The notes under the pieces: generated by a model
Database searches by the model: none
What the model was told of the DNA's origin: nothing
Seen by the model: the letters and a program-made list of their open reading frames with translations, nothing else
Part shown: in pieces, positions 20,913 to 40,459 of the stretch
How positions within the stretch are numbered: position 1 is the stretch's first letter
How the letters are laid out: every line of letters starts with the position of its first letter
Assembly: GCA_945860355.1 (NCBI GenBank)
Contig: CAMARB010000007.1
Coordinates: forward strand, 1 to 51,694
DNA length: 51,694 nucleotides
Source: Chthoniobacter flavus
Lineage (GTDB): Bacteria > Verrucomicrobiota > Verrucomicrobiia > Chthoniobacterales > Chthoniobacteraceae
Reading direction: 5' to 3'
Position numbers and translations under genes: made by a program

Positions 20913-21015
20913 GAGAACGCCGGGGAGAGGCAAACGGGGGCCCGCACTGCGCAGCCCCGCACTGGCATGGGATTCATCCTGCCTGCCTGCCCTGCGGAGC
21001 CGGGAGAACTGTGCA

Positions 21016-21155: not shown

Positions 21156-21236
21156 AATCGGGCACAATTCATGCACGCGGGAGTCACCCATGAATTTTTT
21201 GCGGCAAACGGCGAGGCGGGAAACGGTGTTTGTTAC

Positions 21237-21770
21237 GTGACCCCCGCCGAGCAAAACCGGAACGACGTCTTTCTGCGCCTCTACGTCGCCAACGAGGAAG
21301 CGCTCCGGGGGTTTGTGCGTTCGCTGGTGCCGACTCTGGAGGATTCCCGGGAGGTCATGCAGGAGGTGGCTGTGGTGCTGTGGCGGAAGTTTGAGGACAT
21401 CAGCAAGCCGGAGGATTTCAGGCGCTGGGCCTTCGGGGTCGCGCGGTTCAAGGCGCTCGATTTTCACAGGAAACGCGGCAGGGACCGCCATTGTTTCGGA
21501 ACCGAGCTGCTGGAGTTGCTGGCTTCGGAGGCCGAGCAGGCCGACCCCGGATACGACCTCGAGCGCCGGGCGCTTGATGAATGCCTTGAAAAACTGCCGC
21601 GCCCACAGCGCGCGCTGGTGGAGGCCGCGTATGCCCCGGGCGTGCGAATGGACGCGCTGGCCGAGCAGTCCGGCCGCACCCCCATGTCGCTCTACAAAAC
21701 CCTGCACCGGATCCGGATCACGCTCATTCAATGCACACAGAAAACCCTGGCGATGGAGGGCGCCCGATGA
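21237..21770 (+). CDS. ECF-type RNA polymerase sigma factor (module 1)
   Basis: From the GTG at 21237 it has about 177 residues with the two ECF domains. The sigma2 region contains 'EEALRGFVRSLVP', 'REVMQEVAVVLWRKFED' and 'FRRWAFGVARFKALDFHRKR'; the sigma4 helix-turn-helix is 'LPRPQRALVEAAYAPG...MDALAEQSGRTPMSLYKTL'. It belongs to the sigma-70 group expanded in PVC bacteria. The GTG aligns with the start of the paralogue at 27779; an upstream ATG (21171) would add 22 residues that lie in repeat-like DNA. Its TGA overlaps the next start (ATGA), so it is coupled to its membrane partner and probably controlled by it. Confidence 0.88.
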   Translation: MTPAEQNRNDVFLRLYVANEEALRGFVRSLVPTLEDSREVMQEVAVVLWRKFEDISKPEDFRRWAFGVARFKALDFHRKRGRDRHCFGTELLELLASEAEQADPGYDLERRALDECLEKLPRPQRALVEAAYAPGVRMDALAEQSGRTPMSLYKTLHRIRITLIQCTQKTLAMEGAR

Positions 21771-22729
21771 ACCCCGACGACCCCGCATGGGAGCTGATCG
21801 GCTGTTACCTGGGAGGCTCAGCCACCCCGGAGCAGACCCGTCAACTCGAAGCCCTGATGCTAAAAGATCCCGAGTTGCGCGAGGCTTTCCTGCGGTACGC
21901 GCGGATGGACGCCGCCCTGGGCGGCCAGACCCCGTCCGCCGCAGGAGAACTGCTGCTTTCGGAGACGCCCTGGGAAGACGCCCCAAAAATCCGCTCCTCC
22001 CGGCTGCGCCTGTCGCCGGTGGCTGCGGCGGCCGCGGCGGGGGTGGTGTTTGGGATGTTCTGCTCGTCGATGGTCTGGGCTTATGTCGCGCCCGTGGCCT
22101 CGAAAACCCTCGGGTTGTTGTGGGAAAGTTTCGAGACCGGGCCCGCCCCCCTCGCGGAGGGCGTTCCCAATGAGGCGTCGCGGTGGGGCGGCGACGATTC
22201 GGATCTGGTGGGGGCGCAGCAGGGGGTCAAGCCGGCCAGCGGAACCCGGATGCTCCGGCTGCTGCGTCCCGATTTTGCCGGCAAACCGCCCGTTACCAGT
22301 GTGCGCGCCGACATGTACCGGGTGGTGGATCTGCGCGCGCACCGCCAGGACATCGGCCACGGCGAGGCCATGGTGCAGCTCTCCGCGCTCTTCAATCACG
22401 GGGTTTCCGGCGAAGCTCTGGGATCGGACGGGCTGATCACCCTCTACGCCCTGCCCAACGCGCGCGCATTCACGGGGCTCGCGCCGGATGATTCCAGGCT
22501 GTCGCTGAGCGCCGTCGCCATGGTCCGCAAATCGATCGCTCGTCTCGATGACCAACCCCAGACCTGGGAAAAACTCCAGGCCGAGCTGCGGTTGCCGGCC
22601 GAAACCGAGTTCCTGGTGATCCATCTGGGCATGAAACCGCTGCCTCCCTCGGCGCCAGGTTCGGCGTTTGACGGGCTCTATGTGGACGACGTGCGCCTCA
22701 CCCTGGGCCGTCGGGCCGCTCTCCAATAA
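21767..22729 (+). CDS. Membrane anti-sigma-like protein with extracytoplasmic beta-sandwich (module 1)
   Basis: The 320-residue protein starts with a short cytoplasmic helical domain ('LIGCYLGGSATPEQTRQLEA', about 10-29) that lacks the HxxxCxxC zinc motif of ZAS anti-sigma factors. A single membrane helix follows (about 84-108, 'AAGVVFGMFCSSMVWAYV'), then a ~210-residue periplasmic domain with 'ESFETGPAPL', 'WGGDDSDLVGAQQGV' and 'RMLRLLRPD', ending 'FDGLYVDDVRLTL'. That domain looks like a jelly-roll/carbohydrate-binding fold, but I cannot name it. The FecR-like layout and 4-bp overlap with the sigma gene suggest it senses an outside cue and releases the sigma factor. Close paralogues are at 28309 and 38919. 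Confidence 0.75.
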   Translation: MNPDDPAWELIGCYLGGSATPEQTRQLEALMLKDPELREAFLRYARMDAALGGQTPSAAGELLLSETPWEDAPKIRSSRLRLSPVAAAAAAGVVFGMFCSSMVWAYVAPVASKTLGLLWESFETGPAPLAEGVPNEASRWGGDDSDLVGAQQGVKPASGTRMLRLLRPDFAGKPPVTSVRADMYRVVDLRAHRQDIGHGEAMVQLSALFNHGVSGEALGSDGLITLYALPNARAFTGLAPDDSRLSLSAVAMVRKSIARLDDQPQTWEKLQAELRLPAETEFLVIHLGMKPLPPSAPGSAFDGLYVDDVRLTLGRRAALQ

Positions 22730-22804
22730 TCACCCAGCCCCCCCAGCCACCCCAGCCCCCGCCCGGCGCAGTGGCCCGGCTCGGATTCCCCACCCAAAAC
22801 ACCC

Positions 22805-23788
22805 ATGAAACTTTTCCCGATGCTGACATTGCTGTGCGCGCTCTCCGCCCCGGGCGCGGAGAGCGACTGGGTCACGGTGGGTGACCCCGGCAACCCCCCG
22901 GACAAGGCCGGGTGCGGCGGCGTCGCTTACGAGTACCAGATCGGCCGGTTTGAGGTGACCGTCGAACAGTATGTCGAGTTTCTCAACGCCGTCGCGGCCG
23001 ACGACTCCCGCCAGCTCTGGCACCCGAGCATGGGTCTCGCGGAATATCGCGTCACCGAACCCGTGTTCGCCGGACGCGTCCCCCCGCGGATGCCCGGCTG
23101 CATCCGGCGCGCGGGGGACCCCGGCGGTTATCGGTATGAGGCCGTCGCCGGCTGGGAAAAAAAACCCGTGGTGTATGTGAGTTTCCTGGACGCGATGCGT
23201 TTTGCCAACTGGCTCCACAACGGCCGCGGAAAAGGCGACACGGAGACCGGCGCCTACGACATCGCCGAACACGGCGGGATTGCCCCTCACGCGCCGGGGG
23301 CGCGGGTCTGGGTGGCCACCGAAAACGAGTGGGTCAAGGCGGCCTATTTTCATCCCCCGAGAAAGGGCGGTCCCGAAGGCGGTTACTGGCTCTTTCCCAC
23401 GCAAAGCAACGATCTGCCCGGTCTGCACGATCCGGGCGCCCCCGGCGCGAACCTTGCCAATTTCTTCAATCTGCGCCTGCCGAAATCGCAGTTCACCGAT
23501 TACACGCGGATTTTCCCCGTCGGCAGCTTCCCCAAAGCGGCGAGCCACTACGGCACGTTCGACCAGGGCGGCAACGTGTCGGAATGGAACGAAGCCGTGG
23601 TGTATCAAACCCAGCGCCGGATTCGGGGCGGGTCGGTCGGCGACGCCTTCGAGGTTTTGCAGCGGGTCACCCGCATTAGTTCCCGGCCAGAAAAGGAGTA
23701 TCCCGACACCGGCTTCCGCCTGGCCCGGCCTGTGCCCGCTCCCGCGACCGGCCGGCTCGGGTTCGCCCAACCCTCTTCCCAACGATGA
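22805..23788 (+). CDS. Secreted FGE-sulfatase (SUMF1-like) domain protein, no FGE catalytic cysteines
   Basis: This 327-residue protein has a signal peptide (1-18, 'MLTLLCALSAPGA') and an SUMF1/EgtB-like fold. It starts 'YEYQIGRFEVTVEQYVEFLN', with 'VYVSFLDAMRFANWLHNGRG', 'VWVATENEWVKAAYFHP', 'GTFDQGGNVSEWNEAV' and the end block 'IRGGSVGDAFEVL...DTGFRLAR'. The block after RGGS, where true formylglycine-generating enzyme has two copper-binding cysteines, contains none. Sulfatase-maturing activity is therefore unlikely; a binding or scaffold role is more probable. Its stop overlaps the start of the DUF1592-type cytochrome gene (ATGA), so it belongs to module 1; the second module lacks it. Confidence 0.82.
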   Translation: MKLFPMLTLLCALSAPGAESDWVTVGDPGNPPDKAGCGGVAYEYQIGRFEVTVEQYVEFLNAVAADDSRQLWHPSMGLAEYRVTEPVFAGRVPPRMPGCIRRAGDPGGYRYEAVAGWEKKPVVYVSFLDAMRFANWLHNGRGKGDTETGAYDIAEHGGIAPHAPGARVWVATENEWVKAAYFHPPRKGGPEGGYWLFPTQSNDLPGLHDPGAPGANLANFFNLRLPKSQFTDYTRIFPVGSFPKAASHYGTFDQGGNVSEWNEAVVYQTQRRIRGGSVGDAFEVLQRVTRISSRPEKEYPDTGFRLARPVPAPATGRLGFAQPSSQR

Positions 23789-26229
23789 AGCTCAAAACAC
23801 TTTTCCTCGCGGCGGTTCCGGCTCTTTTCCCCGGACCCGACGCCCGTTCCGCGGAGCTCCCGGCGAAACTCGAGCCCCTTTTGGAGGCCCACTGTTACGA
23901 CTGCCACGACGCGGACACCCACAAAGGCGGCCTGGATTTAACCCGGCTGCCGTTGGACTTCCAAACCGGGGACAACCTCCAGCAGTGGACCAAGGTGTTC
24001 GACAAGGTCGCGCACGGGGAGATGCCGCCCAAGAAAAAGCCGCGCCCCGCCCCGGCCCTGGCCGCGGGGTTTCTCCAAACCCTCCGCACGGAACTCCACG
24101 GGATCAGCCTGGCCCGACAGCAGCGGGAGGGCCGGGCGGTGCGTCGGCGTCTGAGCCGGGCGGAGTATTTGAACACGCTCCGGGACCTGCTCGGGGTGGA
24201 GGGCGGCCTGCGCGAGCTGTTGCCGGAGGACGAGACCGACGGGGGATTTGAGAACATCGGATCGGCCCTCAACCTTTCGGAAGTCCACCTGGAACGCTAC
24301 CTGCAAGCCGCCGACCTGGCGTTGCGCGAGGCCACCGTCCGCAACGCCCGGCCCGAGGACCAAAAATTCCGGTCCGACTACACCGAGCAGTGGCAGGGCG
24401 CGATTCAGCAGCACGAAAAAGCCTCGTTTTGGACGTTCTCACCGGAGGGTTTTCTCGCCATGCGCGTGGCCTCGGGGCGGCTGGAGTTTCCGCACGCCTG
24501 GGTTCCACCGGTGCCCGACGCGCTCTACCGGTTCCGGGTGCGTGTTCGGGCGATGATGGAAAACTTCGCGCCCAACGGCGATCCCCTCAAAAAAAAGGGG
24601 CCGGATCCGCGGATGATGGTGCGGGTGGGGCTGACCCGGAGCCCAGGAGCCACGCGCGGCAACGAGTATTTCGAGGCCAGCCCGAGTGAGTTTCGCGAGT
24701 TTGTGTACGAAGGCCGTCCCCGGCAGGGCGAACAGTTTTATGTGGGCCCGTACCGGGTGATTCCCGACCAGCCCGGCGAAGAGGGCGCCATCCTGCGGGG
24801 GACTTGCCTGGTGGTGGAATGGGTCGAGTTCGAGGGCCCGCTCACCGAGGAATGGCCGCCCCGGGGCCACCGGTTCCTTTACGGGGATCTGCCGCTGCGC
24901 CCGGCCAACCCGGCTGCCTCCTCCAAGGATCTGCGGGTGGTGTCCTCCCAGCCCGAGACCGATGCGCGGCGGTTGCTGGCGGGTTTTCTGAGCAGGGTGT
25001 TCCGGCGGCCCGCGCGGCCGGAGGAGGTCGAGGAACACGTCGGGTTTGCCATGGAAAAAATGCGCAACGGCAAGCCCTTCGACGACGCCCTGCGCGCGGC
25101 CTACAAGCTGGCGCTTTGCTCCCCGGAATTTCTCTTCTTGGACCAGCAACCCGGCCCGCTCGACGACCGCGCCCTGGCCTCGCGACTGAGTTACGCACTC
25201 TGGGCAGGCCCGCCCGACGACACCCTGCGCGCCGCGGCGGAGCAGGGCCGCCTGCGGGAGCCCGCCGTGCTCCGTCAACAAACCGAGCGCCTGCTGGCCG
25301 ATCCGAAATCCAAACGGTTCACCCGGAGTTTCCTCGAGAGTTGGCTCAACCTGCGGGAGATCGACTTCACCCAGCCCGACGTGAAGCTCTACCCCGAGTT
25401 CGAGCAGTATTTACAGATGTCGATGCTGGCCGAATCGGAGGCCTTTTTCGAGGAGCTGCTCCGGGGTAACCTGGGCGCCAGCCACATCGTGCACAGCGAC
25501 TTCGCCATGCTCAACGAACGGCTCGCGGAACATTACGGCATCCCGGGAGTCCGGGGCGCCGCCCTGCGGCGGGTGGATCTGCCGCCCGGGACCCACCGGG
25601 GCGGGTTCATCACGCAGGGCGCTCTTCTGAAGGTGTCCGCCAACGGCACCATCACCTCGCCCGTGGTGCGCGGGGCGTATCTTCTCGACCGGATTCTGGG
25701 CACGCCCCCGGATCCCCCGCCCAAGAACGTGGCGGCCATCGAACCCGACATCCGCGGCGCCACGACCATCCGCGAGCAGCTCGACAAACACCGCAACCAA
25801 CCCGCCTGCGCCTCGTGCCACGCCCAGCTCGATCCCCCGGGGTTCGCCCTGGAGAGCTTTGACGTCACCGGCCGGTGGCGGACCCGGTATCGGACGTTCC
25901 AGGAGAGCGAAAAGACGCGGCAAAACCCCGGGCCGGGCATGGAATGGCGGTTTTACAGCCAGGGGCCGGCGGTGGACCCGGCGTATACCCTGCCCGACGG
26001 GCGGAAGTTCAGCGATGTGGACGAGTTCAAGCGCCTGCTTTTGACGGATCCCGAGCAGCTGGCCCGTTGCGTCACCGGCAAACTGCTCACCCATCTCACC
26101 GGGGCGCGGCCCGAGTTCGCCGACCGCGAGGTGATCGAGGGGATTTTGCGCCGTGCGAAGCCCGGCGGCTACGGCCTGCGCACCCTGCTGCACGAGATCA
26201 TCCAAAGCCGCCTGTTTCTTCAGAAATGA
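23785..26229 (+). CDS. DUF1592-type multidomain c-type cytochrome (module 1)
   Basis: The 814-residue exported protein has signal peptide 1-22. The N-terminal planctomycete cytochrome domain carries haem motif CYDCH (Cys37, Cys40, His41), and the 'GEMPPKKKPRP' block supplies the likely distal Met. DUF1587 follows ('RRRLSRAEYLNTLRDLLG'), then a long insert, DUF1595/DUF1592 ('LASRLSYALWAGPPDDTLRA', 'FTRSFLESWLNLREIDF'), DUF1588 with a second CxxCH ('CASCHAQLDPPGFALESFD') and DUF1585 at the end. The family is typical of Planctomycetes and Verrucomicrobiota and is usually paired with a DUF1552 protein, as here. Biochemical function is unknown; periplasmic electron transfer linked to polymer degradation is a common guess. 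Confidence 0.88.
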   Translation: MKLKTLFLAAVPALFPGPDARSAELPAKLEPLLEAHCYDCHDADTHKGGLDLTRLPLDFQTGDNLQQWTKVFDKVAHGEMPPKKKPRPAPALAAGFLQTLRTELHGISLARQQREGRAVRRRLSRAEYLNTLRDLLGVEGGLRELLPEDETDGGFENIGSALNLSEVHLERYLQAADLALREATVRNARPEDQKFRSDYTEQWQGAIQQHEKASFWTFSPEGFLAMRVASGRLEFPHAWVPPVPDALYRFRVRVRAMMENFAPNGDPLKKKGPDPRMMVRVGLTRSPGATRGNEYFEASPSEFREFVYEGRPRQGEQFYVGPYRVIPDQPGEEGAILRGTCLVVEWVEFEGPLTEEWPPRGHRFLYGDLPLRPANPAASSKDLRVVSSQPETDARRLLAGFLSRVFRRPARPEEVEEHVGFAMEKMRNGKPFDDALRAAYKLALCSPEFLFLDQQPGPLDDRALASRLSYALWAGPPDDTLRAAAEQGRLREPAVLRQQTERLLADPKSKRFTRSFLESWLNLREIDFTQPDVKLYPEFEQYLQMSMLAESEAFFEELLRGNLGASHIVHSDFAMLNERLAEHYGIPGVRGAALRRVDLPPGTHRGGFITQGALLKVSANGTITSPVVRGAYLLDRILGTPPDPPPKNVAAIEPDIRGATTIREQLDKHRNQPACASCHAQLDPPGFALESFDVTGRWRTRYRTFQESEKTRQNPGPGMEWRFYSQGPAVDPAYTLPDGRKFSDVDEFKRLLLTDPEQLARCVTGKLLTHLTGARPEFADREVIEGILRRAKPGGYGLRTLLHEIIQSRLFLQK

Positions 26230-26295
26230 CGCGGAACCACAACCCTTGCGCGCGGCCGTCTCCCGCTGCGCGTTCGCGCTGATCAGCCCACCGAT

Positions 26296-27573
26296 ATGGC
26301 CACCTACACCTCCCAAAAACATCTCTCCCGCCGCACGTTCCTCAAAGCCGCCGGGGTCTCCCTGGCTCTGCCCTGGCTGGACGCCATGTTGCCCGCCTTC
26401 GCCGCCGCCCCCGCCCGGCCCATGCGTTTTGTCGGGATCGTCAATTACATGAGCTTCCACACCCCGCTGCTTTTCCCAAAAACCGCCGGGCGCAATTACG
26501 AGACCACTCCCTATCTGGAGGTTCTGCAACCCCTGCGGGAGGATTTCACGGTGGTCTCGGGGCTCAACCATCCGCAGGTGCGGGACGGCCACGCGTCGGA
26601 AAGGTCGTTTTTCACCGGCGCGCCCAACCCGAACTCGCCGTCCTTTCGAAACACCGTGTCGCTCGACCAGCTCGCGGCGGAAACGCTGGGCCGCGAGACG
26701 CGGTATCCCTCGCTTCAGCTCTCCAGCGCGGGGTCCGGGAGCAGCCTCAGCTACACGCGCAGCGGGGTGAACCTGCCCGCCGAGGGCAGCCCGGAGCGGG
26801 CGTTCGCGAGGCTCTTTTTGGACGGATCCAAGGCGGCGATGGCCGAGGAAATCGCGCGGATCCGGGAGGGCCAATCCATTCTCGACAGGCTCACGGAACG
26901 CTCCAAACGCCTCCAGCGGGAGGTTGGGGCGCGGGACCGCGAGAAACTCGACCAGTACTTCACCGGGGTGCGCGAGCTCGAGCAGCGGCTGGAGCGGACC
27001 GAGGGGTACGCGCGGCAGCCCAAACCCAAGCCGGGCGTGCCGCCGATCAAAGAGCCGGCCCAGGGGGAAGACACGGCCCGGCTGGGCGCGCTGCTGGAGG
27101 TCGCGCGGCTGGCGCTCCAGACCGATCAGACCCGGCTGATCACGGTTCATTTCCGGGGCACAGTGAAAACGCCCTCCGATCCCGGGAAAAGTTACTCCCA
27201 CCACGACCTCACCCACCACGGCCAGAGCAGCGACAAAATCGGGCAGCTGGCGGTGCTCGAGCGGGACGTGCTGAAGGAATGGAGCGCTTTTCTCAGGCGC
27301 ATGAAGGAGTTCCAGGAAGGCGACGGCGCCCTGCTCGGTCGCACGATGAGCGTCTTGGGCGCGGGCATGGGCAACGCCTCAAGCCATGACTCGACCAATC
27401 TGCCGATCCTGGTCGCCGGTGGCCGGTTCAAACACGGACAACACCTCGCGTTTGATCCGCTCAATCCTCCGCCCCTGTGCAACCTCTGGGTGCAGATGCT
27501 CCAGGAGCTGGGTTTGGAGGTGGGCAAATTCGGGACCAGCACGGCACAGGGTCTTCCCGGGTTGAGCGCATAG
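26296..27573 (+). CDS. Tat-exported DUF1552 protein (module 1)
   Basis: The 425-residue protein opens with a twin-arginine signal, 'LSRRTFLKAAGVSLALPWL', cut after about residue 36. DUF1552 motifs follow: 'MRFVGIVNYMSFHTPLLFP', 'YLEVLQPLREDFTVVSGLNH', 'DGHASERSFFTGA', 'GREKLDQY..VRELEQRLE'-type coiled segment, and 'LGAGMGNASSHDSTNLPIL'. Conserved His/Asp residues and Tat export suggest a metal-containing enzyme distantly like the alkaline-phosphatase/DUF1501 fold, but activity is unknown. It lies 66 bp after the DUF1592-type gene and is its expected partner. Confidence 0.88.
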   Translation: MATYTSQKHLSRRTFLKAAGVSLALPWLDAMLPAFAAAPARPMRFVGIVNYMSFHTPLLFPKTAGRNYETTPYLEVLQPLREDFTVVSGLNHPQVRDGHASERSFFTGAPNPNSPSFRNTVSLDQLAAETLGRETRYPSLQLSSAGSGSSLSYTRSGVNLPAEGSPERAFARLFLDGSKAAMAEEIARIREGQSILDRLTERSKRLQREVGARDREKLDQYFTGVRELEQRLERTEGYARQPKPKPGVPPIKEPAQGEDTARLGALLEVARLALQTDQTRLITVHFRGTVKTPSDPGKSYSHHDLTHHGQSSDKIGQLAVLERDVLKEWSAFLRRMKEFQEGDGALLGRTMSVLGAGMGNASSHDSTNLPILVAGGRFKHGQHLAFDPLNPPPLCNLWVQMLQELGLEVGKFGTSTAQGLPGLSA

Positions 27574-27639
27574 GTTGGCAGCTCGCCGCTCGGCTCTTTG
27601 ATCCCCCGCGCAACCAGCGACGGGACGATTTCTCCAGGC

Positions 27640-27701
27640 AGTGGCAGAGCCGTCCCGGCTCTGGTGTTTCCCGTAACCAGCGGCGGGACGCCGCTGCCAC
27701 T
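27640..27701. repeat. 62-bp palindromic element, GGGAC-loop variant
   Basis: Bounded by agtggcag and ctgccact, it holds two hairpin halves, agagccgtcccggctct and agcggcgggacgccgct. The layout parallels the R1 repeats, but the inner words differ. A partial half (caaccagcgacgggacga) lies just upstream near 27611. It sits in the 205-bp gap between modules 1 and 2. Confidence 0.6.
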
Positions 27702-27778
27702 TCCGGCGCGCGGAGGGCGCGGGAAGTTTTTTCCACTTTTTTCGGCAAACCCGGCCGTTCGCGGAGCATTGTCTCTGG

Positions 27779-28309
27779 ATGCGCGTTCCCGACCCGAGCC
27801 AACACGATGATTTCCTGCGCCTCTTCATGGAGGCGCAGGACTCCCTGCGGGTGTATGTGAGGTCCCTCCTGTTTGACCAGGAGGAGGAGCGCGAGGTCAT
27901 GCAGGAAGTGGCCGCCGTGCTTTGGCGCAAATTCGAGGCCGGGATGACCCGGGAATCTTTCGCGCGCTGGGCGTGTGGGGTCGCCCGGATGGAGGTGCTC
28001 GCTTTCCGCCGGGATCGCGCCCGGGACCGGCATTGTTTCGGGGAAGACGTGTTCGAGCTCCTGGCGCAGACCGTCGAGGAGCAATCCGACACTCTGGAGG
28101 CCGAGCGCCGGGCTTTGGAGCAATGCATGGAAAAGCTGCCCGCGCCGCAACGCCAACTGCTGGAGGCGGCCTACGCGCCGGGAGTGCAGATCGACCAGCT
28201 CGCGCGGCAAATGAAACGCACCGCGATGGCTCTTTATAAAACCCTGCACCGGTTGCGGCTCCAGCTGCTCGACTGCACCCGGCACACGCTCACGGAAGGA
28301 GAACTCTGA
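27779..28309 (+). CDS. ECF-type RNA polymerase sigma factor (module 2)
   Basis: This 176-residue paralogue of the module 1 sigma shares 'FLRLF', 'REEVMQEVAAVLWRKFE'-type sigma2 sequence (here 'EREVMQEVAAVLWRKFE'), 'DRHCFGEDVFELLAQ' and the sigma4 block 'LPAPQRQLLEAAYAPGVQ' with 'AMALYKTLHRLRLQLLDC'. No anti-sigma domain is fused. Its stop overlaps the next ATG by one base (TGATG), implying translational coupling. The similarity to the gene at 21237 extends through the whole protein, indicating duplication of the module. Confidence 0.9.
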   Translation: MRVPDPSQHDDFLRLFMEAQDSLRVYVRSLLFDQEEEREVMQEVAAVLWRKFEAGMTRESFARWACGVARMEVLAFRRDRARDRHCFGEDVFELLAQTVEEQSDTLEAERRALEQCMEKLPAPQRQLLEAAYAPGVQIDQLARQMKRTAMALYKTLHRLRLQLLDCTRHTLTEGEL

Positions 28310-29322
28310 TGCACCCAAACGATCCGCGCCTTGAACTGATCCGCCTCCATCTGGAGGGCAATGCGACCGCCCAGGAGTCGGCCGCGCTGGAGGAGCAGCT
28401 CCGGAACGACCCCGGGTTCCGGGATTTTTATGTGCGTTCCGTGAATCTGGACTTGGCCCTGGCCGACGCCGGCAAGCTCTCCTTCCGGCCTGCCGGAGAC
28501 GCGCCGGGGTTGTCGTCGCAGCCGATCCGCGGCCCTTGGTGGCAGCGCCGTCCCTTGAGCGCCATGGCCGCGGGCGTGGTTTTCGGAATGTTCTTCAGCT
28601 CCGCGGTGTGGGCTTACGTGGGGCCCATGACGGCGAAGGCGGTGACGCTCTTCCGCGACAGCTTTGAATCGGGCCGGGCGCCTCTGGTGAACGGATTCCC
28701 CATCGTTCCCGGCGTCTGGGGGGGCGACTTCTCGGAGGTCGTCGGCCCCCAACAGGGCGTTCTGCCTTTCAATGGCCGCCGCATGTTGCGCCTTCTGCGC
28801 GCGGATCACTCCGGCAAGAAACCGGAAATCGGCTACAACTGCAGCCTCGCACGAATCATCGATCTTCAGCAGCACTGGGGCCATTTGGACGACGGCAAAG
28901 GGGTTCTTTCCTTCGAGGCCAGTTTCAAGATGACGGACTCCGCGGAACCGGGCCGGTACCGCGGCGGGGCATCGCTGTTTGCCTTATACGACCTGCCGGA
29001 TCAACACGACGACTCCGAGATCTTCGCGCATGTCCGCAGGGAACAGCAGATCTTCCGGGCGGAGGCGAAGAGCGCAGGCGCCAGCGCGGGATTCAGCCCC
29101 GCCTCTGCCCACCGCAGCTTCGCTCTGGACGCCGAGCCCGGCTGGCAGAAGTTGCGCATCGATCTGCTGCTTCCGCCCGGGACCCGCTATTTGCTTCTGG
29201 AAATGCACGTGTCGGATCGCAAGGCGGAGAAGCAGCGTGTGGATTCGAGCCAAGTCGCGTTCCCCGGACATTTCATCGACGACATCCACGTGAGTCTCAC
29301 CCGGAGCCACTCGCTGCCTTGA
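28309..29322 (+). CDS. Membrane anti-sigma-like protein with extracytoplasmic beta-sandwich (module 2)
   Basis: This 337-residue paralogue of the protein at 21767 has a cytoplasmic helical domain starting 'LELIRLHLEGNATAQESAAL'. One membrane helix follows (about 82-104, 'AAGVVFGMFFSSAVWAYVG'), then a periplasmic domain with 'DSFESGRAPLVNGFP', 'VWGGDFSEVVGPQQGV', 'RMLRLLRADHSGK' and the end block 'FIDDIHVSLTRS'. Conservation with module 1 is strongest in the membrane helix and the WGGD...RMLRLL block, suggesting that these do the signalling. A FecR-like transmembrane regulator of the adjacent sigma factor is the best reading. Confidence 0.75.
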   Translation: MHPNDPRLELIRLHLEGNATAQESAALEEQLRNDPGFRDFYVRSVNLDLALADAGKLSFRPAGDAPGLSSQPIRGPWWQRRPLSAMAAGVVFGMFFSSAVWAYVGPMTAKAVTLFRDSFESGRAPLVNGFPIVPGVWGGDFSEVVGPQQGVLPFNGRRMLRLLRADHSGKKPEIGYNCSLARIIDLQQHWGHLDDGKGVLSFEASFKMTDSAEPGRYRGGASLFALYDLPDQHDDSEIFAHVRREQQIFRAEAKSAGASAGFSPASAHRSFALDAEPGWQKLRIDLLLPPGTRYLLLEMHVSDRKAEKQRVDSSQVAFPGHFIDDIHVSLTRSHSLP

Positions 29323-29366
29323 GCGGGGGCGCCGCCCTCTCCCGCCCCTTTATTCCCCCTTTAAAA

Positions 29367-30485
29367 ATGACCGGCACGACGCGTTTCCTCCTGATCCCCG
29401 CCCTCGCACTTCTTCCTGCCCTCCCCGCCCGGGGCGCGGAGTCCGGCGTCCGCGCCGTGATGCGGGAGAAACACCGGCAGCTGCTCGAAAAACACTGCCA
29501 AAGCTGCCATGGGGCCGAGAAACAGAAGGGCAAGTTCCGCGTCGACGACCTGAGTTTCGCCATCCACGACGTGCAGACCGCCGCCCGCTGGCAGAAGGTC
29601 CTCGATGCGATGAACGCTGGGGAGATGCCCCCGGAGGAGGAAAAACAGCCGGACGCAAAAGCGAAGACGGATTTTCTTGAGGACCTGGCCAACACCATGG
29701 TCGCGGCGCGCCGGACGTTGGCCGACCAGCACGGGGTGATTGCGCTGCGCCGGCTCAACCAGCGCGAGTATAAAAACACCCTGCGCGCGCTGCTCGGCGT
29801 GGAAATCGACGTGAGCGAGCTGCCGCCCGACACGAGCGCTGCGGCTTTCGACACCGTGGGTTCGGGCCTGTTCATGTCGGGCAACCAGTTCGAGCAATAC
29901 GAGGCCATCGGGCGCGAGGCGCTCGAGGAGGCCGCCCGCCGGCAACTGGCCCGGGGCGCGGTGAAAAAACGCCGATTCGAGGTGGAGGAGACCCTCGAAA
30001 AAGTCCGCGCATTTCACCAGGAGAACCTCGACGCCGTGGAACGCGGCAAACGCTGGGTCAATGCCGTGGAGGCGAAGGCTGCGCTCCCGGAGAACGCGGG
30101 AATCGTCGCCGAGCTGCGCAAAACAGCGCGCAGCTCCCGGGAATTGCTCCGCAGCTGGGAAAAGATTCCGGGCGCACCCGCCCCGGAGGAGTTCGGGTTC
30201 AAGACCAAGGAGAACAACGCGGACAAAGCGTTGGCGGCGTCGGGCAACGTGGTCTTTCCGCAGTATGACGCGTACTACCTCTCGCAACCGCACCTGGACA
30301 CCGGGGCTTACCTGACGATTAACCGCCAGCATCAGGTAAACTCCTGGTTTTACCTGGGGATTCCCGGCGATTTCCCCCCGGGCGACTACGTTCTGAGGGT
30401 GTGCATCGCCGCCACCGCCGAGGCCCCCCCGAGCGCCGCTTTCTGGAGTTCGGCGTGCAGGAACACGCGGGCGCCCACGGCCTGA
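29367..30485 (+). pseudogene. DUF1592-type cytochrome, N-terminal part before a frameshift (module 2)
   Basis: From ATG 29367 the frame encodes a signal peptide (1-24, 'PALPARGAES'), the haem motif in 'LEKHCQSCHGAEKQKGKF', 'GEMPPEEEKQPDAK', and DUF1587 'ALRRLNQREYKNTLRALLG'. A charged insert and a beta-rich segment ending 'VLRVCIAATAEA' follow. The frame then breaks at a C7 run (30424-30430) and ends after 18 unrelated residues. One extra C would join it directly to the frame that continues to 32053. It follows the anti-sigma-like gene by 44 bp. It could be a sequencing error, a real mutation or phase variation. Confidence 0.8.
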
Positions 30486-32053
30486 TCATCAGCACCCACG
30501 CGGTCGGCGCCGCCATGGACGAGCCCGAGCTGCTGGAGATCCCGTTCCGGCACACCCGCCAGACCCGAAACAAGACCCTCTTTATCCGGGAGAAAGGCAC
30601 CCGCGACCACTACGAGCAGGCCAAAGACAAGTTCAACGCCGCCAGAACCAGGAACGGGATCGGGCCGGAAGTCGCCCTCTGGGTGGACTGGATGGAACTC
30701 GAGCTCAAGCCCCAGCCGGTTGAACCGGCGCCGACCGGCTTGCGAGCCTTGGGGCTCGGGCTGGACGACAAGGCGCCCGCTCCCGCCCCGGACGACCTGC
30801 GCGCGGCCGTTGAAAGATTTGCGCTTGAGGCGTTCCGCGGCCTGCCTCCCAGCGCCGCGTATTTGGATCGTTTGCTGGCGCTGTATGAGGAATCCCGGCG
30901 CGCCGGCAGCGCCCACGGGGTCGCGCTCAAGGAAATCCTGGAGGCCGTGCTTGCGTCGCCCAAGTTTCTCTACCGGGCCGAGCCCTCCGATACCCGGCGG
31001 ACTTTGACCGGCAATGAACTAGCCACCCGGCTCTCCTATTTCCTCTGGGGCGCACCGCCCGATCCCGCCTTGCGCGCCCTGGGTGAATCCGGCGACCTGT
31101 TGCGAGCCGAGGTGCTGGCGGCCCAGACACAACGGCTTCTCGACGATCCGCAGGCCCTGGGGTTTGTCGAGCCGTTCACCCGCCAATGGCTCGGTTTGGA
31201 CCGGCTCGATTTTTTCGAGTTCAACCGCCAGCGGTTTCCCCGCTTCGACATCAGCACCAAGAACGCCGCCCGGCGGGAGGTCTCGGAGACATTCGCCCAC
31301 CTGCTCCGGGAGAACGCCAGTCTCACCCATCTGCTCAAGGCCGACTACGCGATCGTCAACGGCTTGCTGGCCGACTACTACGGGATCCAGGGGGTGCGGG
31401 GCGATGCGTGGCGCAAAGTGGCGCTGCCCAAGGACTCGCCGCGCGGGGGCCTTTTGGGGATGGCGGCGGTGCTGGCCATGGGCAGCAACGGCGAACACAC
31501 CAGCCCTGTGGAACGCGGCGCCTGGGTGCTGCGCAAGGTGCTCAACGATCCGCCTCCGCCCGCCCCGGCCAACGTGCCGGCCATCACCCGGCTCGCCGGC
31601 AAAGTGCTGACCACCCGCGAACGGGTGCTGGCGCACCAGGAGGATCCCCAGTGCGCTAGCTGCCACCGCAAGATCGACCCGATCGGGTTCGGGCTGGAAA
31701 ACTTCGACGCCGTGGGCCAGTGGCGCACGGAGGATTCTTACGAGGCGAAGGACAACGACGGGAAACCGCTCCCGAACGCCAAGAAAACGTGGGCGATCGA
31801 TCCGGCCGGGGCATTCCACAAGGGGGCGGCCTTTGCCAACTACCAGGAATTGCGCGGCGTGGTGGCTTCGAAGCACGAGGCGTTTGCGCGGGGGTTCACC
31901 TCGGCGCTCATCGAATACGCCCTCGGGCGCCCCTGCGGCTTTAGCGACGAGCCCCTCGTGGACGGCATTGTTGGCCACGCGCGCGCTCGGGATTTCGCCG
32001 TCCGCGCCTTCGTTCACGCACTGATCCAGAGCAAAGAGTTCCACTCCAAATAG
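30401..32053 (+). pseudogene. DUF1592-type cytochrome, C-terminal part after the frameshift (module 2)
   Basis: The conserved part starts at about 30431 ('ERRFLEFGVQEHAGAHG') and continues the protein above. The GTG at 30401 is only the first possible start in this frame and is unlikely to be genuine. Domains are DUF1595/1592 ('LATRLSYFLWGAPPDPALRA', 'FTRQWLGLDRLDFFEF'), 'LLADYYGIQGVRGDAWRKV', DUF1588 with haem motif 'CASCHRKIDPIGFGLENFD', and DUF1585 near 'FTSALIEYALGRPCGF'. Joined, the protein would have about 895 residues, comparable with its 814-residue paralogue. It is followed after 11 bp by the second DUF1552 gene. Confidence 0.8.
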
Positions 32054-32064
32054 AGAGCACCCCA

Positions 32065-33357
32065 ATGAACACCCCTTTGAACCGCCGCCATTTCCTGCGC
32101 TCCAGCACCGCCCTCATCGCACTGCCTTTTCTTGAGTCCCTCGGTTTCCGGCGGTTTGCCTCCGCCGCAACGCCGGTTGCGCCTCCCAAACGCCTGGTTT
32201 TCCTCGGGCTGGGCTGGGGACTGACCACGGAAACGTGGTTCCCGGACGCGCACCAACCCGGCGCCGGATACACCCTGCCCAAGGGGTTGGCGCCGCTGGA
32301 GCGGCACAAGGCGGGATTCACCGTGGTGCAGGGGCTCACGCACAAGTCGGTGAACGCCGGGCACCAGGGCGGCACGTTCTGGCTGACGGGCGCCAATCAG
32401 TTCGTGGTGCCGGGGAAAAGCTTCCACAACACCATCTCCGCCGACCAGGTGGCCGCGGCCCAGTTCGGGCGGCACACGCGGTTCGCCTCCATTCAGCTCG
32501 ACTGCGCGAACCCCGGCAACTCCGGGCACGGCCCCGGCCTGTCGCTGGCCTGGGATCAGGGCGGGAAACCCATCGGCGGCCACAAAAACCCGGTGGAGGC
32601 CTATCACCGCCTTTTTGCCAACGAAACCACGCCCGTCGAACAGCGCAAAGCCCTGCTGGCGCGTCGGCGCAGCCTGCTCGACACGGTGTTGGAGGACGCG
32701 AACGATCTGCGGCGCGGGCTCGGGAAGACGGACAACGAGAAGTTGGAGGAGTATTTTGAGGGGATCCGCGACATTGAAACCCGGCTGAGCAAGGACGAGC
32801 AATGGCTTGGGGTGCCCCGGCCCAAATCGCCGCTGGGAGAGCCGAAGCCGGGCCTGGCCGGGCGTCAGGAAATCGAGCTCATGTATGACATCCTGGTGGC
32901 CGCGCTTCAGACCGACAGCACCCGGGTGCTCACTTATCGGCAGCCGGTGGACACGCTGCTCACCAGCCTCGACATCAAGGTGGCCCCGCACGACATGAGC
33001 CATTACCACTCGACGATGGCGGAGAAGCTCGACGCCTCCCAGCGGCGCGACATCGCCCAGGCGCAGCTGCTCGCCGGGCTGCTCGACAAACTCAAGTCCA
33101 CCCGGGAGGCCGACGGGACCAGCCTGTTTGACCACGTCACCGTCGCCTTCGGCACCAACACCCGCACCGAACACAGCGGCGACAACTGCCCCACCCTGCT
33201 CGCCGGCGGCGGGGCCGGGCTCAAGCTCGGCCAGAACCTGGTGCTGCCCAAGGGCACCCCCCTCAACAATGCATGGCTCACCGTGCTCCAGGGATCGGGC
33301 CTCCCGGTGGAACGCCATGGCGACAGCACCGGCGTGATCAAAGAACTGCTCGCCTGA
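32065..33357 (+). CDS. Tat-exported DUF1552 protein (module 2)
   Basis: The 430-residue protein has a twin-arginine signal, 'LNRRHFLRSSTALIALPFL', then DUF1552 motifs: 'KRLVFLGLGWGLTTETWFP', 'LAPLERHKAGFTVVQGLTH', 'GHQGGTFWLTGANQ', 'VPHDMSHYHST'-type His-rich block (here 'APHDMSHYHSTMAEK') and 'VTVAFGTNTRTEHSGDNCP'. It is a paralogue of the module 1 protein and directly follows the frameshifted cytochrome gene by 11 bp, as expected for this partner pair. Its activity is unknown. Confidence 0.88.
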   Translation: MNTPLNRRHFLRSSTALIALPFLESLGFRRFASAATPVAPPKRLVFLGLGWGLTTETWFPDAHQPGAGYTLPKGLAPLERHKAGFTVVQGLTHKSVNAGHQGGTFWLTGANQFVVPGKSFHNTISADQVAAAQFGRHTRFASIQLDCANPGNSGHGPGLSLAWDQGGKPIGGHKNPVEAYHRLFANETTPVEQRKALLARRRSLLDTVLEDANDLRRGLGKTDNEKLEEYFEGIRDIETRLSKDEQWLGVPRPKSPLGEPKPGLAGRQEIELMYDILVAALQTDSTRVLTYRQPVDTLLTSLDIKVAPHDMSHYHSTMAEKLDASQRRDIAQAQLLAGLLDKLKSTREADGTSLFDHVTVAFGTNTRTEHSGDNCPTLLAGGGAGLKLGQNLVLPKGTPLNNAWLTVLQGSGLPVERHGDSTGVIKELLA

Positions 33358-33377
33358 ATCCGAGGCGCGTTTTCCCT

Positions 33378-34124
33378 GTGAAATGCCGCCTCCTCGGGTG
33401 GGCTCTTTTTTCCGGAGCGCTTCTCCACGCTCATCCGGGGTTCACGGCTGAAGTCCGGCCTGTGCTCGGAGAACGCGGCGACTTGGTTTTTCAGTCCAGG
33501 TGTGAGGGACCCCGGGCCCGGGTTCCGCGCACGGAGTTTGGGGCTTCCACGTTCATCCGGGGGACACTCCGGGTGGAGCAAACCCAGCCCCATTACACCG
33601 TGGTGCATTGGGTGGAACCCCGGGCGTTGGGCAGCCGCGCTTTGCGGGCGTGCATGATGCAAGTCGATTTCCGCTGGGTCGGCGCCACGGATGTGCAGTT
33701 TCGTTTTTTCCGCGAGGACGGACTCCGCAAAAAGCCCGAGGAAGCCGCGTTGCCGCCTTGGTTCAGCGTGGACTTGATATGCCTCAAGGGCGAGCAGACG
33801 CCCTCCCGATGGCAAATCAGCGATCGCGTCTCGCTCATCGACCCCGACACGAAAACGCGGCCAACCAGCGCAGGCAGTCCCGTTCCCAAGGAACAGGCCC
33901 CCTACCCGAGCACCGTTGCGCCGCTGTGGCTGCAGAGCGGAAAATGGTATCGGATTCTTTTTGAAGTGAAGGGCGATGACGTGAGCGTTCAGCTCAACGA
34001 TGGGCAATCCCTCCGGGGCCGTTGCAAAGGGGCCGACAGGGCCAAGGTGCCCAGCCTGCTCCTGGAGGCGCCCCCGGGCAAAGGGGTCGAATTCGACAAT
34101 CTCAAGCTCTGGTCGCTGCGTTAG
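33378..34124 (+). CDS. Secreted protein of unknown function, probable jelly-roll fold
   Basis: From the GTG at 33378 it has 248 residues with a signal peptide (1-24, 'LLHAHPGFTA'). The body is beta-rich with 'GDLVFQSRCEGPR', 'VDFRWVGATDVQFRFFRED', 'WYRILFEVKGDDVSVQLNDG' and 'GVEFDNLKLWSLR'. The last two blocks resemble concanavalin A/LamG and 3-keto-disaccharide hydrolase-like sandwich domains. It starts 20 bp after the DUF1552 gene, so it is probably the last gene of module 2 and has no counterpart in module 1. A polysaccharide-binding or hydrolase role is a guess from fold and context. Confidence 0.65.
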   Translation: MKCRLLGWALFSGALLHAHPGFTAEVRPVLGERGDLVFQSRCEGPRARVPRTEFGASTFIRGTLRVEQTQPHYTVVHWVEPRALGSRALRACMMQVDFRWVGATDVQFRFFREDGLRKKPEEAALPPWFSVDLICLKGEQTPSRWQISDRVSLIDPDTKTRPTSAGSPVPKEQAPYPSTVAPLWLQSGKWYRILFEVKGDDVSVQLNDGQSLRGRCKGADRAKVPSLLLEAPPGKGVEFDNLKLWSLR

Positions 34125-34216
34125 GCCCCGGCGGCCGCCCTCTCACGGGCTGGGCTTGGAGGCCGATCCGCGGACGCGGGAATTGTGACAATCCTGTGGC
34201 AAACCGGCGGAGGGGA

Positions 34217-34244: not shown

Positions 34245-34252
34245 AACCGCCG

Positions 34253-34714: not shown

Positions 34715-35722
<1,008 letters not shown>

Positions 35723-38789: not shown

Positions 38790-38924
38790 ACTCCGAAGTT
38801 TCAGAGAGAGATTATTTTCACGCGGAGGCGCGGGTAACGCGGAGGGATTTTTGGAAATTGCCCAATCCAAAGGCTTTGCACTTTCGCCCCTTCAGGCATT
38901 CCGCTGGAACTTCCGTTTTCAGGG
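38790..38924 (+). repeat. Dispersed repeat R2, copy flanking the third sigma operon (left)
   Basis: It begins actccgaagtttcagagag, continues 'attattttcacgcggaggcg' and 'caaaggctttgcactttcgc' and ends 'gctggaacttccgttttcag'. It is nearly identical to 40551-40684 in the same orientation. Its right end overlaps the last codons of the minus-strand anti-sigma-like gene by about 6 bp. Confidence 0.85.
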
Positions 38925-39920
38925 TGAACGCCCCAGAAGGCGTTTCCCAGAAAGGGCCTGCGTCTTCAGAGCCACTTGCACGTTGGATACGTATTGGGCC
39001 CCCAAATCCAAAGGCTCTGTCCCGTTCCGAGTCACACGGCCGGCGCCCACGTGGATCACGGCATAATCGGCCTTGGTATGCAGGGCACAGCGGGTGGACA
39101 CCTTGATCTCGCGCCCGGTGTCACCGCCGCCCACGCTATCCTCGTAGCCAACGCTGCTTCCCAGGACATCCCGCAAAGCCACCGGCCACAACGGCTGCAG
39201 CGTCTCGGGTTTGCCCTCAAAAAGATAAATATGGCACGCGAGATGCACCGGTCTGCCGGGTTTCGGACGGGTGTCGAGGAATTCGGCTGAAAATTCCAGA
39301 ATGGATTCCGTGTCCGGATCGAGCTGTGTCTTGAGGTGGCTCAGATCGAGGATCCGGAAGGCGTCGCAGGAGTTGGCACGGCCGTTCCGGGAGTTGCGGT
39401 CGCCGACGGCCTGGATGAACCGCAGACCGCCGCCGTTTTTCAGCTTCGCGGAGTATTCGGCGGGGTCCCCGCTCCAAACCCCCGTTCTAAAGGGAAACCC
39501 GGGCGCCAAAGGGCCGTTCTTGTCCTCGAACCCATCCTGAAAAAGCATCATCCACTCGGTGACAGCCCCCCGCGGAACGGCGATTGCCCAGGCCATCGAA
39601 GCGCAGAGAAACCCGACAACCACCCCTGCGGCGGCAGCCGTGGTGGACCACTGGAACCAGCTTCTGTATTTCGTAATCACCCGGCCGGCGCCCTGGGGCG
39701 TGTCCGCATCCACTAAAGCTTCCATCTGGGCCGTGCGCAGATCCTCGGTGAGCACCACGTCGTCGGCCAGCCACTGGGCGGCGGCGGCCCGGGCCTCCGG
39801 GCGCGTCCTCAAAATGTCGTTGAGTTCTTTGCGTTCCGCGGCGGACAACTGCCGGGTCCTGCTTTCAACAAGCAGTTCGTTCAGGCGCGGCATGCAGGGA
39901 TAGTGGGGAGTGGGGCTCAT
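38919..39920 (-). CDS. Membrane anti-sigma-like protein with extracytoplasmic domain (third, orphan pair)
   Basis: The 333-residue third member of the family has cytoplasmic helices ('LNELLVESRTRQLSAAERKE', about 13-32). A membrane helix follows (about 92-114, 'AAAAGVVVGFLCASMAWAIA'), then a beta-rich periplasmic domain with 'LFQDGFEDKNGPLAPGFP', 'GVWSGDPAEYS' and an end block 'LGAQYVSNVQVAL'. The WGGD...RMLRLL signature of the other two is degenerate here (WSGD, LRFIQA), so ligand recognition may differ. The start overlaps the sigma stop by 4 bp. The last residues run into the flanking R2 repeat, so the native C-terminus may have been altered by it. Confidence 0.72.
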   Translation of the reverse strand: MSPTPHYPCMPRLNELLVESRTRQLSAAERKELNDILRTRPEARAAAAQWLADDVVLTEDLRTAQMEALVDADTPQGAGRVITKYRSWFQWSTTAAAAGVVVGFLCASMAWAIAVPRGAVTEWMMLFQDGFEDKNGPLAPGFPFRTGVWSGDPAEYSAKLKNGGGLRFIQAVGDRNSRNGRANSCDAFRILDLSHLKTQLDPDTESILEFSAEFLDTRPKPGRPVHLACHIYLFEGKPETLQPLWPVALRDVLGSSVGYEDSVGGGDTGREIKVSTRCALHTKADYAVIHVGAGRVTRNGTEPLDLGAQYVSNVQVALKTQALSGKRLLGRSP

Positions 39921-40459
39921 GCGGTTTGTTCGTTGAGACGGCGTTCAATGCAATCAGCCAGGCTGCGCCGGAGCCGCATCAGGAGCACTTTGACGGCGCT
40001 CAGGCGCATTCGATGGGAGGCGGCGATTTCGGCGTGGGGATGGCCCAGCACATAATGAGCCGAGAGCACGTCGCGATGGCGGGGCTGGAGTTTTTCCGTG
40101 CACAGGGCTAGCGCATCGCGGCGGGCGCCCACGGTCTCGGCGACATGGAGCGATTCATCGACCATGGCTAACGCCACGTCCTCGTCGAAAACCAGCAGGT
40201 CACGCTGCCGATCCCGGATAACAGCGAGCACTTCGTACCGGGCCACGGCCAGAGCCCAGGGCAGAAACCGTTTTTTTTGATCCCATTCTCCGGCCTTGCG
40301 CCAGAGCACCACGTTGGTGCGTTGCCAGGCGTCTTTGCCCTCTTCCCTGTTACCAAGCGACGCCTCGCAGTAGGCGCGCAGGGCCGTCTGCGACTCTGTC
40401 AGCGCCAGCACAAAAGCGGCGTCGGGGGCGTTCTGGCCGGGTTCAGTAAACGAGCTCAT
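39917..40459 (-). CDS. ECF-type RNA polymerase sigma factor (third, orphan pair)
   Basis: From ATG 40459 it has about 180 residues. The sigma2 part shows 'SQTALRAYCEASLGNREEG', 'NVVLWRKAGEWDQKKRFLPW' and 'VARYEVLAVIRDRQRDLLVF'; the sigma4 part shows 'LQPRHRDVLSAHYVLGHPHA' and 'MRLSAVKVLLMRLRRSLADC'. A GGGAG lies about 11 bp before this ATG, which I prefer to the ATG at 40477. It is coupled to the membrane protein by a 4-bp overlap. Unlike modules 1 and 2 there is no DUF1592/DUF1552 pair beside it. Confidence 0.85.
   Translation of the reverse strand: MSSFTEPGQNAPDAAFVLALTESQTALRAYCEASLGNREEGKDAWQRTNVVLWRKAGEWDQKKRFLPWALAVARYEVLAVIRDRQRDLLVFDEDVALAMVDESLHVAETVGARRDALALCTEKLQPRHRDVLSAHYVLGHPHAEIAASHRMRLSAVKVLLMRLRRSLADCIERRLNEQTA

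Follow-up and report, generated by a model that had tools for sequence, protein, structure and literature searches.

The window analysed here is a stretch of 51,694 nucleotides (nt) from Chthoniobacter flavus, contig C7 of a draft genome that totals 3.89 Mb in 276 contigs at 86.5% completeness, and we focus on two neighbouring gene sets within it, each of which links a sigma factor of the Sig-70_gvs1 family (hereafter gvs1) and an anti-sigma-like membrane protein to a putatively exported pair of DUF1592 and DUF1552 proteins. Our analysis was made purely from sequence, with gene calls that are approximate in this high-GC draft. Two tandem sets were confirmed on the plus strand, 205 nt apart: module 1 (21237-27573) runs in the order sigma, anti-sigma-like protein, formylglycine-generating enzyme (FGE)-domain protein, DUF1592, DUF1552, and module 2 (27779-34124) in the order sigma, anti-sigma-like protein, DUF1592, DUF1552, small protein. 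Together with the promoter-like elements that precede them, their features are as follows (Tat, twin-arginine translocation).

21202..21230, plus strand: module 1 promoter-like element, CGGCAAA (21202-21208), 15 nt, CGGTGTT (21224-21230), ahead of the GTG at 21237
21237..21770, plus strand: sigma 1, Sig-70_gvs1 (TIGR02989, 158.9 bits; Sigma70_r2 and r4_2 above cut-off), recognition helix RTPMSLYKTLHR
21767..22729, plus strand: anti-sigma-like protein 1, overlapping the sigma 1 stop (ATGA), with one hydrophobic helix
22805..23788, plus strand: FGE-domain protein (PF03781, 62.3 bits, cut-off 23.3), signal-like N-terminus
23785..26229, plus strand: DUF1592 diheme protein 1, PSCyt1-PSD3-PSD5-PSD4-PSCyt3-PSD2, with CYDCH at 37 and CASCH at 675
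26296..27573, plus strand: DUF1552 (HXXSHH) protein 1 (PF07586, 229.1 bits), Tat-type N-terminus RRTFLKAAG
27743..27769, plus strand: module 2 promoter-like element, CGGCAAA (27743-27749), 12 nt, CGGAGCAT (27762-27769), ahead of the ATG at 27779
27779..28309, plus strand: sigma 2, Sig-70_gvs1 (TIGR02989, 144.2 bits), ATG start, recognition helix RTAMALYKTLHR
28309..29322, plus strand: anti-sigma-like protein 2, built like protein 1, TGATG overlap with sigma 2
29367..32053, plus strand: DUF1592 diheme protein 2, broken, with CQSCH and CASCH and a frame change near a run of seven C
32065..33357, plus strand: DUF1552 (HXXSHH) protein 2 (PF07586, 256.1 bits), Tat-type N-terminus RRHFLRSS
about 33378..34124 (the start codon being a choice), plus strand: small protein with a signal-like N-terminus, distantly related to a protein of the module on contig C78

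The repeated order of sigma, anti-sigma-like, DUF1592 and DUF1552 genes that the original prediction had described is borne out, both sigmas exceeding the curated TIGR02989 cut-off of 124.55 bits, and so is its statement that overlaps or short gaps join most genes, with ATGA overlaps at 21767 and 23785, a TGATG at 28309 and gaps of 11-75 nt at the remaining junctions. These overlapping or close gene starts are compatible with co-translation. Sigma 1 was taken to start at the GTG at 21237; an alternative, longer open reading frame (ORF), from 21171, would engulf the promoter-like element.

A two-haem DUF1592 protein had been expected in each module, and that of module 1 is intact, with all six PSCyt/PSD domains and two CXXCH motifs, but the gene of module 2 is frameshifted: the frame of 29367-30485 is followed by an ORF in another frame (30401-32053), the switch lying at the seven-C run (30424-30430), and the domains tested are split between a first piece with PSCyt1 and PSD3 and a second with PSD4. 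The break may be a sequencing or assembly error or a real pseudogene, two cases that are indistinguishable because other genes of the draft genome are also broken, for instance both effectors on contig C168; among the 24 DUF1592 matches of this genome, 5 lie in open frames under 600 residues, some of which may be contig ends. Both DUF1552 proteins exceed the PF07586 cut-off of 30 bits, and the Tat-type N-terminus of the first reaches 19.1 bits with TAT_signal, under the cut-off of 22.7. The FGE-like protein noticed earlier does pass its Pfam family, but its cysteines stand only at 11, 37 and 99, with no C-terminal pair; in formylglycine-generating enzymes, the active-site cysteine pair is C-terminal. 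No Pfam family matched the small protein of module 2, and its C78 homologue reaches 22.1 bits with the 3-keto-disaccharide hydrolase family (PF06439), under the cut-off of 26.8.

Each anti-sigma-like protein consists of an N-terminal part of about 80 residues, a hydrophobic helix (residues 85-103 in protein 1 and 83-101 in protein 2) and an ectodomain, which measures about 205 residues in protein 1 and about 225 in protein 2. The one-helix membrane topology first proposed is thereby retained, but the accompanying beta domain is unproven, no Pfam family matching either protein at E 0.1 and FecR (PF04773) being unmatched. Like class I anti-sigmas, both are encoded by genes that directly follow and overlap a gene for an extracytoplasmic function (ECF) sigma, and both bear a membrane helix. 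A profile of 21 members (A4) matches RsiW weakly through its N-terminus (E 0.0074, profile positions 10-49), followed by unrelated coiled coils (E 0.05-0.1), by 3hug_B (E 0.18), listed as a probable membrane protein and which we take to be an anti-sigma complex, and by a xylanase chain (E 0.21), matched over the ectodomain and presumably its family 22 carbohydrate-binding module (CBM22); zf-HC2 is touched weakly by 7 of the 21 members (best E 0.058). With a profile of the ectodomain alone (30 rows), coiled coils alone were returned and the xylanase was gone, and a CBM22 identity was rejected. The Hx3Cx2C zinc motif, present in about 56% of class I anti-sigmas according to the portion of PMC7406223 available, is in neither of the two sequences as read, and the zinc type was likewise rejected. 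By position and build, the one-helix proteins of the window are likely anti-sigmas.

Sets of this kind recur. In the genome of the window, which holds 24 DUF1592 matches, 26 DUF1552 matches over the cut-off (fragments included) and 27 sigma 2 matches, of which sigma 2 itself is one, further sigma/anti-sigma/DUF sets lie on contigs C78, C85, C35, C10, C168, C27 and C24 (contigs, loci and genomes are labelled C, L and G), with a sulfatase, a GDSL-type protein and a 3-keto-disaccharide hydrolase lying between in the C78 set. We then surveyed 13 genomes, this one and 12 relatives, 8 of which have DUF1592, using 149 of 155 DUF1592 matches, the best 90 of 151 sigma matches (at least 87.8 bits) and 70 anti-sigma matches. 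The original prediction had made its case depend on the sigma pair standing beside DUF1592/DUF1552 genes in other genomes, and a co-directional gvs1 sigma was found at most 8 kb upstream of 25 of the 149 DUF1592 domains against 1.88 expected under random placement, in counts that include contig ends and paralogues that are not independent. A same-strand sigma follows downstream of 5 of the 149 domains, and one on the other strand accompanies 3. The upstream sigmas are distributed over the genome of the window (8 of 24 domains), G001 (6/37), G003 (8/27) and G006 (3/36), and none was found in G002 (14 domains), G005 (1), G007 (3) or G008 (7).

The association follows the type of anti-sigma. Among the sigmas with a long-type anti-sigma, the type present in the window, 20 of 39 have DUF1592 at most 8 kb downstream, against 4 of the 51 remaining ones, which holds in the genome of the window (8/15 vs 0/11) as in the relatives taken alone (12/24 vs 4/40; Fisher, 7e-4); an exception in the former is a weak long-type pair on C19, which precedes DUF1549/1553 and DUF1501 genes. 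A scan of named records by sigma alignment identified 91 of 291 candidate stretches as relatives, mostly labelled Verrucomicrobiota or Planctomycetota with few others, and the best 80 of the 91 were kept. An anti-sigma-like gene comes directly after 76 of the 83 sigma genes of these loci (above 130 bits, plus strand). Where at least 5 kb was available downstream, the long type (n = 12) was accompanied by DUF1592 or DUF1552 in 7 cases, by DUF1549/1553 or DUF1501 in none and by a sulfatase in 4; for a type defined by exclusion as FecR or other (n = 43) the figures are 7, 14 and 11, and for the sigmas with no partner (n = 3) they are 0, 1 and 0. A FecR domain was found in the sigma partners at L157, L126, L133 and L110. 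Pairs of gvs1 sigma genes no more than about 10 kb apart also occur in other genomes, at L134, L186, L191 and G003:C69, in the last case back to back.

The promoter-like elements in front of the two sigma genes share their first box, CGGCAAA. The second box of module 1 departs from the consensus and leaves 6 nt before the start codon, and that of module 2 is typical and leaves 9 nt. Across the family, CGGCAA is present in 49 of 104 sigma upstream regions against 2.7 in shuffles (a few loci being near-identical), [CG]GGCAA is upstream of 62 of 108 sigma genes, and a second box of the type CGGAGTGT lies 12-13 nt beyond the first in 52 of 60 distinct sequences, a score that takes the best of seven offsets and hence somewhat favours the box. 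By eye, at many loci, no more than about 20 nt often separate the second box from the start codon, so that messages probably have very short leaders or none. A strict promoter pattern scanned over the 13 genomes gave 7 matches in the genome of the window vs 4 in controls, and therefore just near-exact patterns were read further; a terminator scan found 18 vs 14.6 expected. A single GGCAAA promoter serving all gvs1 sigmas was rejected, as the GGCAAA matrix reached 18 bits in only 2 of 52 other gvs1 upstream regions, and on account of this failure we examined classes of recognition helix.

Reading sigma region 4.2 beside the upstream regions gave five helix classes with five words: YKxxHR or NR with GGCAA; VxVAxSRAR-like helices with GCTAA; VKVLLMR-like helices with TGTAAC; YQxxAR/HR or VRVxLFR with GTTARM or GTCAAA; and YK/YR-x-L-QR/SR with GTCCR. 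In the material from which the rules were made the fit was imperfect, with the word present, class by class, in 65/66, 3/3, 2/2, 2/4 and 4/7 of the collected loci and in 2/4, 8/8, 2/2, 6/6 and 10/12 of the first relatives. The rules were then frozen and confronted with 60 further sigma genes, drawn from 12 genomes within the taxonomic family of the window, which served as hold-out because gvs1 occurs in too few genomes of the wider phylum: it was found at E 1e-30 in 27 of 33 genomes of the family, that of the window included, and at E 1e-28 in just 2 of 13 other genomes sampled from the phylum. The test sigmas were picked by hand, high scores with upstream room first, and some of the genomes had earlier given named loci; 3 sigmas already seen were dropped and, of the 57 examined, 24 could be classified and 33 had no rule. 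The predicted word was present for 23 of the 24 classified sigmas (permutation mean 9.8, maximum 19, p 2e-4), for 20 of 21 after removal of near-duplicates (mean 8.3) and for 11 of the 12 that are under 70% identical to any earlier one (mean 4.4); by class, the score was 6/6, 5/5, 3/3 and 9/10, the TGTAAC class having no member in the test set. To the eye, unruled helices at L365, L373, L377 and L382 seem to have words of their own, for example QTxYNxLN with TTCGGTAAA. On this basis, we would give an even chance to the proposal that gvs1 sigmas form an addressable set of switches, in which the recognition helix gives the -35 word and hence the regulon, distant cytochrome operons included. Both module sigmas fall in the GGCAA class, and cross-talk between the two modules is therefore possible.

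Wiring at a distance is suggested by the location of near-exact promoter copies. In the genome of the window, the module 2 promoter recurs with at most one mismatch at three places, namely module 2 itself and two sigma genes on C78, one of them a decayed copy; the remaining 7 matches have 3 mismatches vs 8 in the control. The C78 remnant (L098:15118-16632) is a second sigma/anti-sigma unit in which the sigma start runs in-frame into a truncated anti-sigma with the promoter element intact, and it looks like a decaying copy. Upstream of an FGE-DUF1592-DUF1552 operon on C19 stands a bipartite element identical to that at a sigma gene on C1. The corresponding 19-base pattern, written post hoc from these two sites, although its rarity itself is not post hoc, is exact there only and otherwise found with 3 mismatches at 2 places (control, 3). 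Profiles detected no effector family on the same strand behind the C1 pair, where a lectin-like gene lies on the other strand, and given this and the exact element, the C1 sigma probably drives the C19 operon in trans. More generally, 25 motif sites of at least 18 bits lie away from sigma genes in 1.43 Mb (loci of the genome of the window included) vs 3 in shuffled sequence. In the named genomes, the genes after such sites encode a sulfatase, a GDSL lipase, a glucose/sorbosone-dehydrogenase-like cytochrome, a cytochrome c and a PA14 protein; at 4 of 13 inspected sites, no ORF of at least 90 residues follows.

To investigate how the modules were assembled, we compared family distances by Mantel correlation in 14 modules having all four families, with partial entries for the DUF1592 protein of module 2 (second piece), the DUF1552 proteins of C85 and C168, the DUF1592 protein of C168 and the anti-sigma of C27. 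Sigma and anti-sigma distances are correlated (r 0.55, p 6e-4), as are, more strongly, DUF1592 and DUF1552 distances (r 0.93, p 1e-4), whereas sigma distances track neither DUF1592 (r -0.12, p 0.74) nor DUF1552 (r -0.19, p 0.87), and anti-sigma distances are weakly related to both (r 0.36, p 0.02; r 0.31, p 0.04). The nine modules of the genome of the window give a similar picture within the pairs (sigma/anti-sigma r 0.78, p 3e-4; DUF1592/DUF1552 r 0.89, p 0.003) and across them (sigma with DUF1592 r 0.16, p 0.24, and with DUF1552 r 0.03, p 0.37; anti-sigma with DUF1592 r 0.31, p 0.11, and with DUF1552 r 0.14, p 0.31). The co-evolution of the four families, which the original prediction had proposed to check, thus applies to sigma with anti-sigma and to DUF1592 with DUF1552, but not to sigma with the DUF families. 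An origin of the two modules by duplication, also put forward initially, was rejected: modules 1 and 2 are 53% identical in sigma, 36% in anti-sigma, 33% in DUF1592 and 32% in DUF1552, and they are sisters in none of the four families, the nearest relatives being, in that order, L131, L140, C19 and C19 for module 1 and C78, C78, C2 and C2 for module 2. The C19 copy of the module 1 effector trio is 55-57% identical and has no sigma gene close in front. Since sigma distances are unrelated to those of the DUF pair and the two modules lack a sister relationship, their sequences identify them as mosaics of two co-evolving pairs rather than as duplicates, which implies that sensor and effector cassettes have been recombined instead of being duplicated together.

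How such a module could operate may be sketched as follows. The overlapping one-helix protein would retain the gvs1 sigma and, through its outer domain, sense a periplasmic signal; once released, the sigma would read the CGGCAAA-type promoter before its own gene, as the conservation of this element suggests, and transcribe itself, the anti-sigma and then an exported redox cassette made of the diheme DUF1592 protein, the Tat-type DUF1552 protein and an accessory protein (FGE-fold or lectin-like). Sigma/anti-sigma pairs would then be plug-in units, joined in cis or in trans to varying effector cassettes. With regard to the cassette, of 21 long DUF1592 rows 19 have two CXXCH motifs and two are truncated by contig ends. 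The DUF1552 profile matches, in its C-terminal 80-90 columns alone, DUF1501 (96.5% probability) and, less well, sulfatase (58.6%), which is a lead, not a result, towards a distantly alkaline-phosphatase-like fold; calcyclin-binding protein, proposed as a solved DUF1552 relative by a single match (E 0.037), was not believed. From these features and from the sulfatase, lipase and 3-keto-hydrolase genes nearby, our best guess for the cassette, and a probable one, is that it processes glycans oxidatively. Overall, we lean, with somewhat better than even confidence, to the view that the modules are envelope-signal switches, autoregulated and insulated in part, that govern exported operons, perhaps for glycan oxidation. 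The "private" switch of the original prediction survives in part: a promoter-like element does precede both sigma genes, but the -35 word is identical in the two modules, the module 2 promoter recurs at the two C78 sigma genes, the paralogous C19 operon appears to be controlled in trans by the C1 sigma, and most DUF1592 domains have no such sigma.

Several observations weigh against this view. No co-directional gvs1 sigma lies within 8 kb upstream of 124 of the 149 DUF1592 domains; 19 of the 39 long-type sigmas have no DUF1592 within 8 kb (contig ends included), and the long-type pair at C35:163 precedes a DUF1501 gene. The anti-sigma identity draws on position, on the hydrophobic helix and on the weak RsiW and zf-HC2 matches, and the CBM22 match of the ectodomain disappeared with the profile of that domain alone. 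The same direction is indicated by the missing correlation between sigma and DUF distances, by the narrow distribution of gvs1 outside the family and by the failure of a single GGCAAA matrix, as well as by the -35 words being so short and common that shuffled assignments still match 9.8 of 24.

Among other explanations, the modules could be general stress switches (envelope, osmotic or heat), with the cytochrome pair serving redox stress and not nutrient use. In Rhodopirellula baltica, the ECF sigma RB10049 is up-regulated by heat, cold and salt, and RB9955, a DUF1552 protein, figures in the same table of the portion of PMC2754498 available; the neighbouring or co-promoted genes here include sulfatases, lipases and sugar-dehydrogenase-like cytochromes, and many paralogous switches with different -35 words would suit many signals better than one stress, so that we hold this reading unlikely. 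Alternatively, DUF1592 and DUF1552 could be cell-surface or assembly proteins and not catabolic oxidoreductases, the switches tuning surface composition. The recurrent CXXCH pairs and the DUF1501 and, more weakly, sulfatase alignments of DUF1552 argue against this, as does a Cellvibrio CBM2 protein annotated as DUF1592 in the accessible part of a lignocellulose community study (PMC6004670). We thus judge a surface role improbable, even if FGE-like and lectin-like partners could be structural and what is available of PMC5615132 states that nothing is known on the function of such cytochrome genes. A sigma acting on nothing but its own gene and that of its anti-sigma, with DUF1592 and DUF1552 following by chance or read-through and having other promoters of their own, would agree with the many DUF1592 domains without a sigma and with the 44-75 nt between the anti-sigma gene and the next, and this reading is made highly doubtful by the 25 co-directional sigmas against 1.88 expected, by the sigma-gene-like promoter of a C19 operon with no sigma gene near and, weakly, by the finding of no sigma70-like promoter in 21000-34800, where only 1.2 were expected by chance.

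Compared with known systems, the preferred reading of the modules as envelope-signal switches extends a link that is already known in kind, that of a sigma to a PSCyt gene. As cited by Wecker et al. (PMC2754498), Studholme et al. proposed RB10049 as regulator of a DUF1549/DUF1553 gene in Rhodopirellula baltica; as in our modules, an ECF sigma is there proposed for a planctomycete-type cytochrome gene (the PSCyt2/PSD1 gene RB10051), but the window has DUF1592 instead of the DUF1549/DUF1553 cytochrome, and the passages of that paper give no anti-sigma type, promoter or wiring. The Verrucomicrobia PSCyt3 pairs of He et al. 2017, for which a carbohydrate role was suggested, resemble ours in that cytochrome domains usually lie beside a partner family with sulfatase genes nearby (PMC5615132), and regulation is not treated in the available text, "sigma" occurring 0 times in the main text. 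The SigI/RsgI systems of Clostridium thermocellum are similarly paralogous pairs of a sigma and a one-helix anti-sigma with an ectodomain sensor, and the sigma acts on the sigI gene promoter, as in the autoregulation proposed here; unlike in our modules, SigI belongs to another sigma group and RsgI ectodomains include carbohydrate-binding and glycoside hydrolase domains (PMC12203970), whereas no carbohydrate-binding domain could be demonstrated here. The ECF/FecR-LamG pairs, such as that at L157, share the gvs1 sigma family, the gene order and a parallel cytochrome and DUF1501 partner, but they differ by an anti-sigma with FecR and LamG domains and by DUF1549/DUF1553-DUF1501 effectors. Within the open-licence literature, we met neither the DUF1592 branch, this anti-sigma type, the mosaic history, the promoter words nor the trans case, and no joint mention of DUF1592 and DUF1552 was found.

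Elsewhere in the window, a further switch follows the two modules:

38919..40456, minus strand: third sigma/anti-sigma pair, gvs1-like, its sigma scoring 118.7 bits and narrowly missing the TIGR02989 cut-off, with TTGTAAC from 40497

Behind it lies a sulfatase gene (37060-38643) on the opposite strand and convergent, and the pair looks like an orphan switch with targets possibly elsewhere. Short GC-rich intergenic inverted repeats of the type CAGCGGCGGGACGCCGCTG, at 27630-27720 and 21018-21045, resemble interspersed repeats by eye. At 21161-24616, module 1 matches L121 over 3456 nt with 93.06% identity, and L121 carries nearly the same promoter-like element, another 224 nt matching at 92.9% within the upstream gene and nothing else in the compared stretch. 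L121 was taken as a contig of G029, a genome placed in another genus, and this near-identity may reflect a recent transfer or mis-binning.

DUF1592/DUF1552 pairs are numerous in some genomes of the Planctomycetes-Verrucomicrobia-Chlamydiae (PVC) group, and the function of such cytochrome genes is called unknown in the available part of PMC5615132. If the sequence of a sigma tells its -35 word, cytochrome operons that lack a nearby sigma gene could be assigned to a switch and the inducer could be looked for by reporter tests, which would make this long-standing gap in annotation testable, and a family of uncharacterised PVC redox operons might be wired up from sequence alone.

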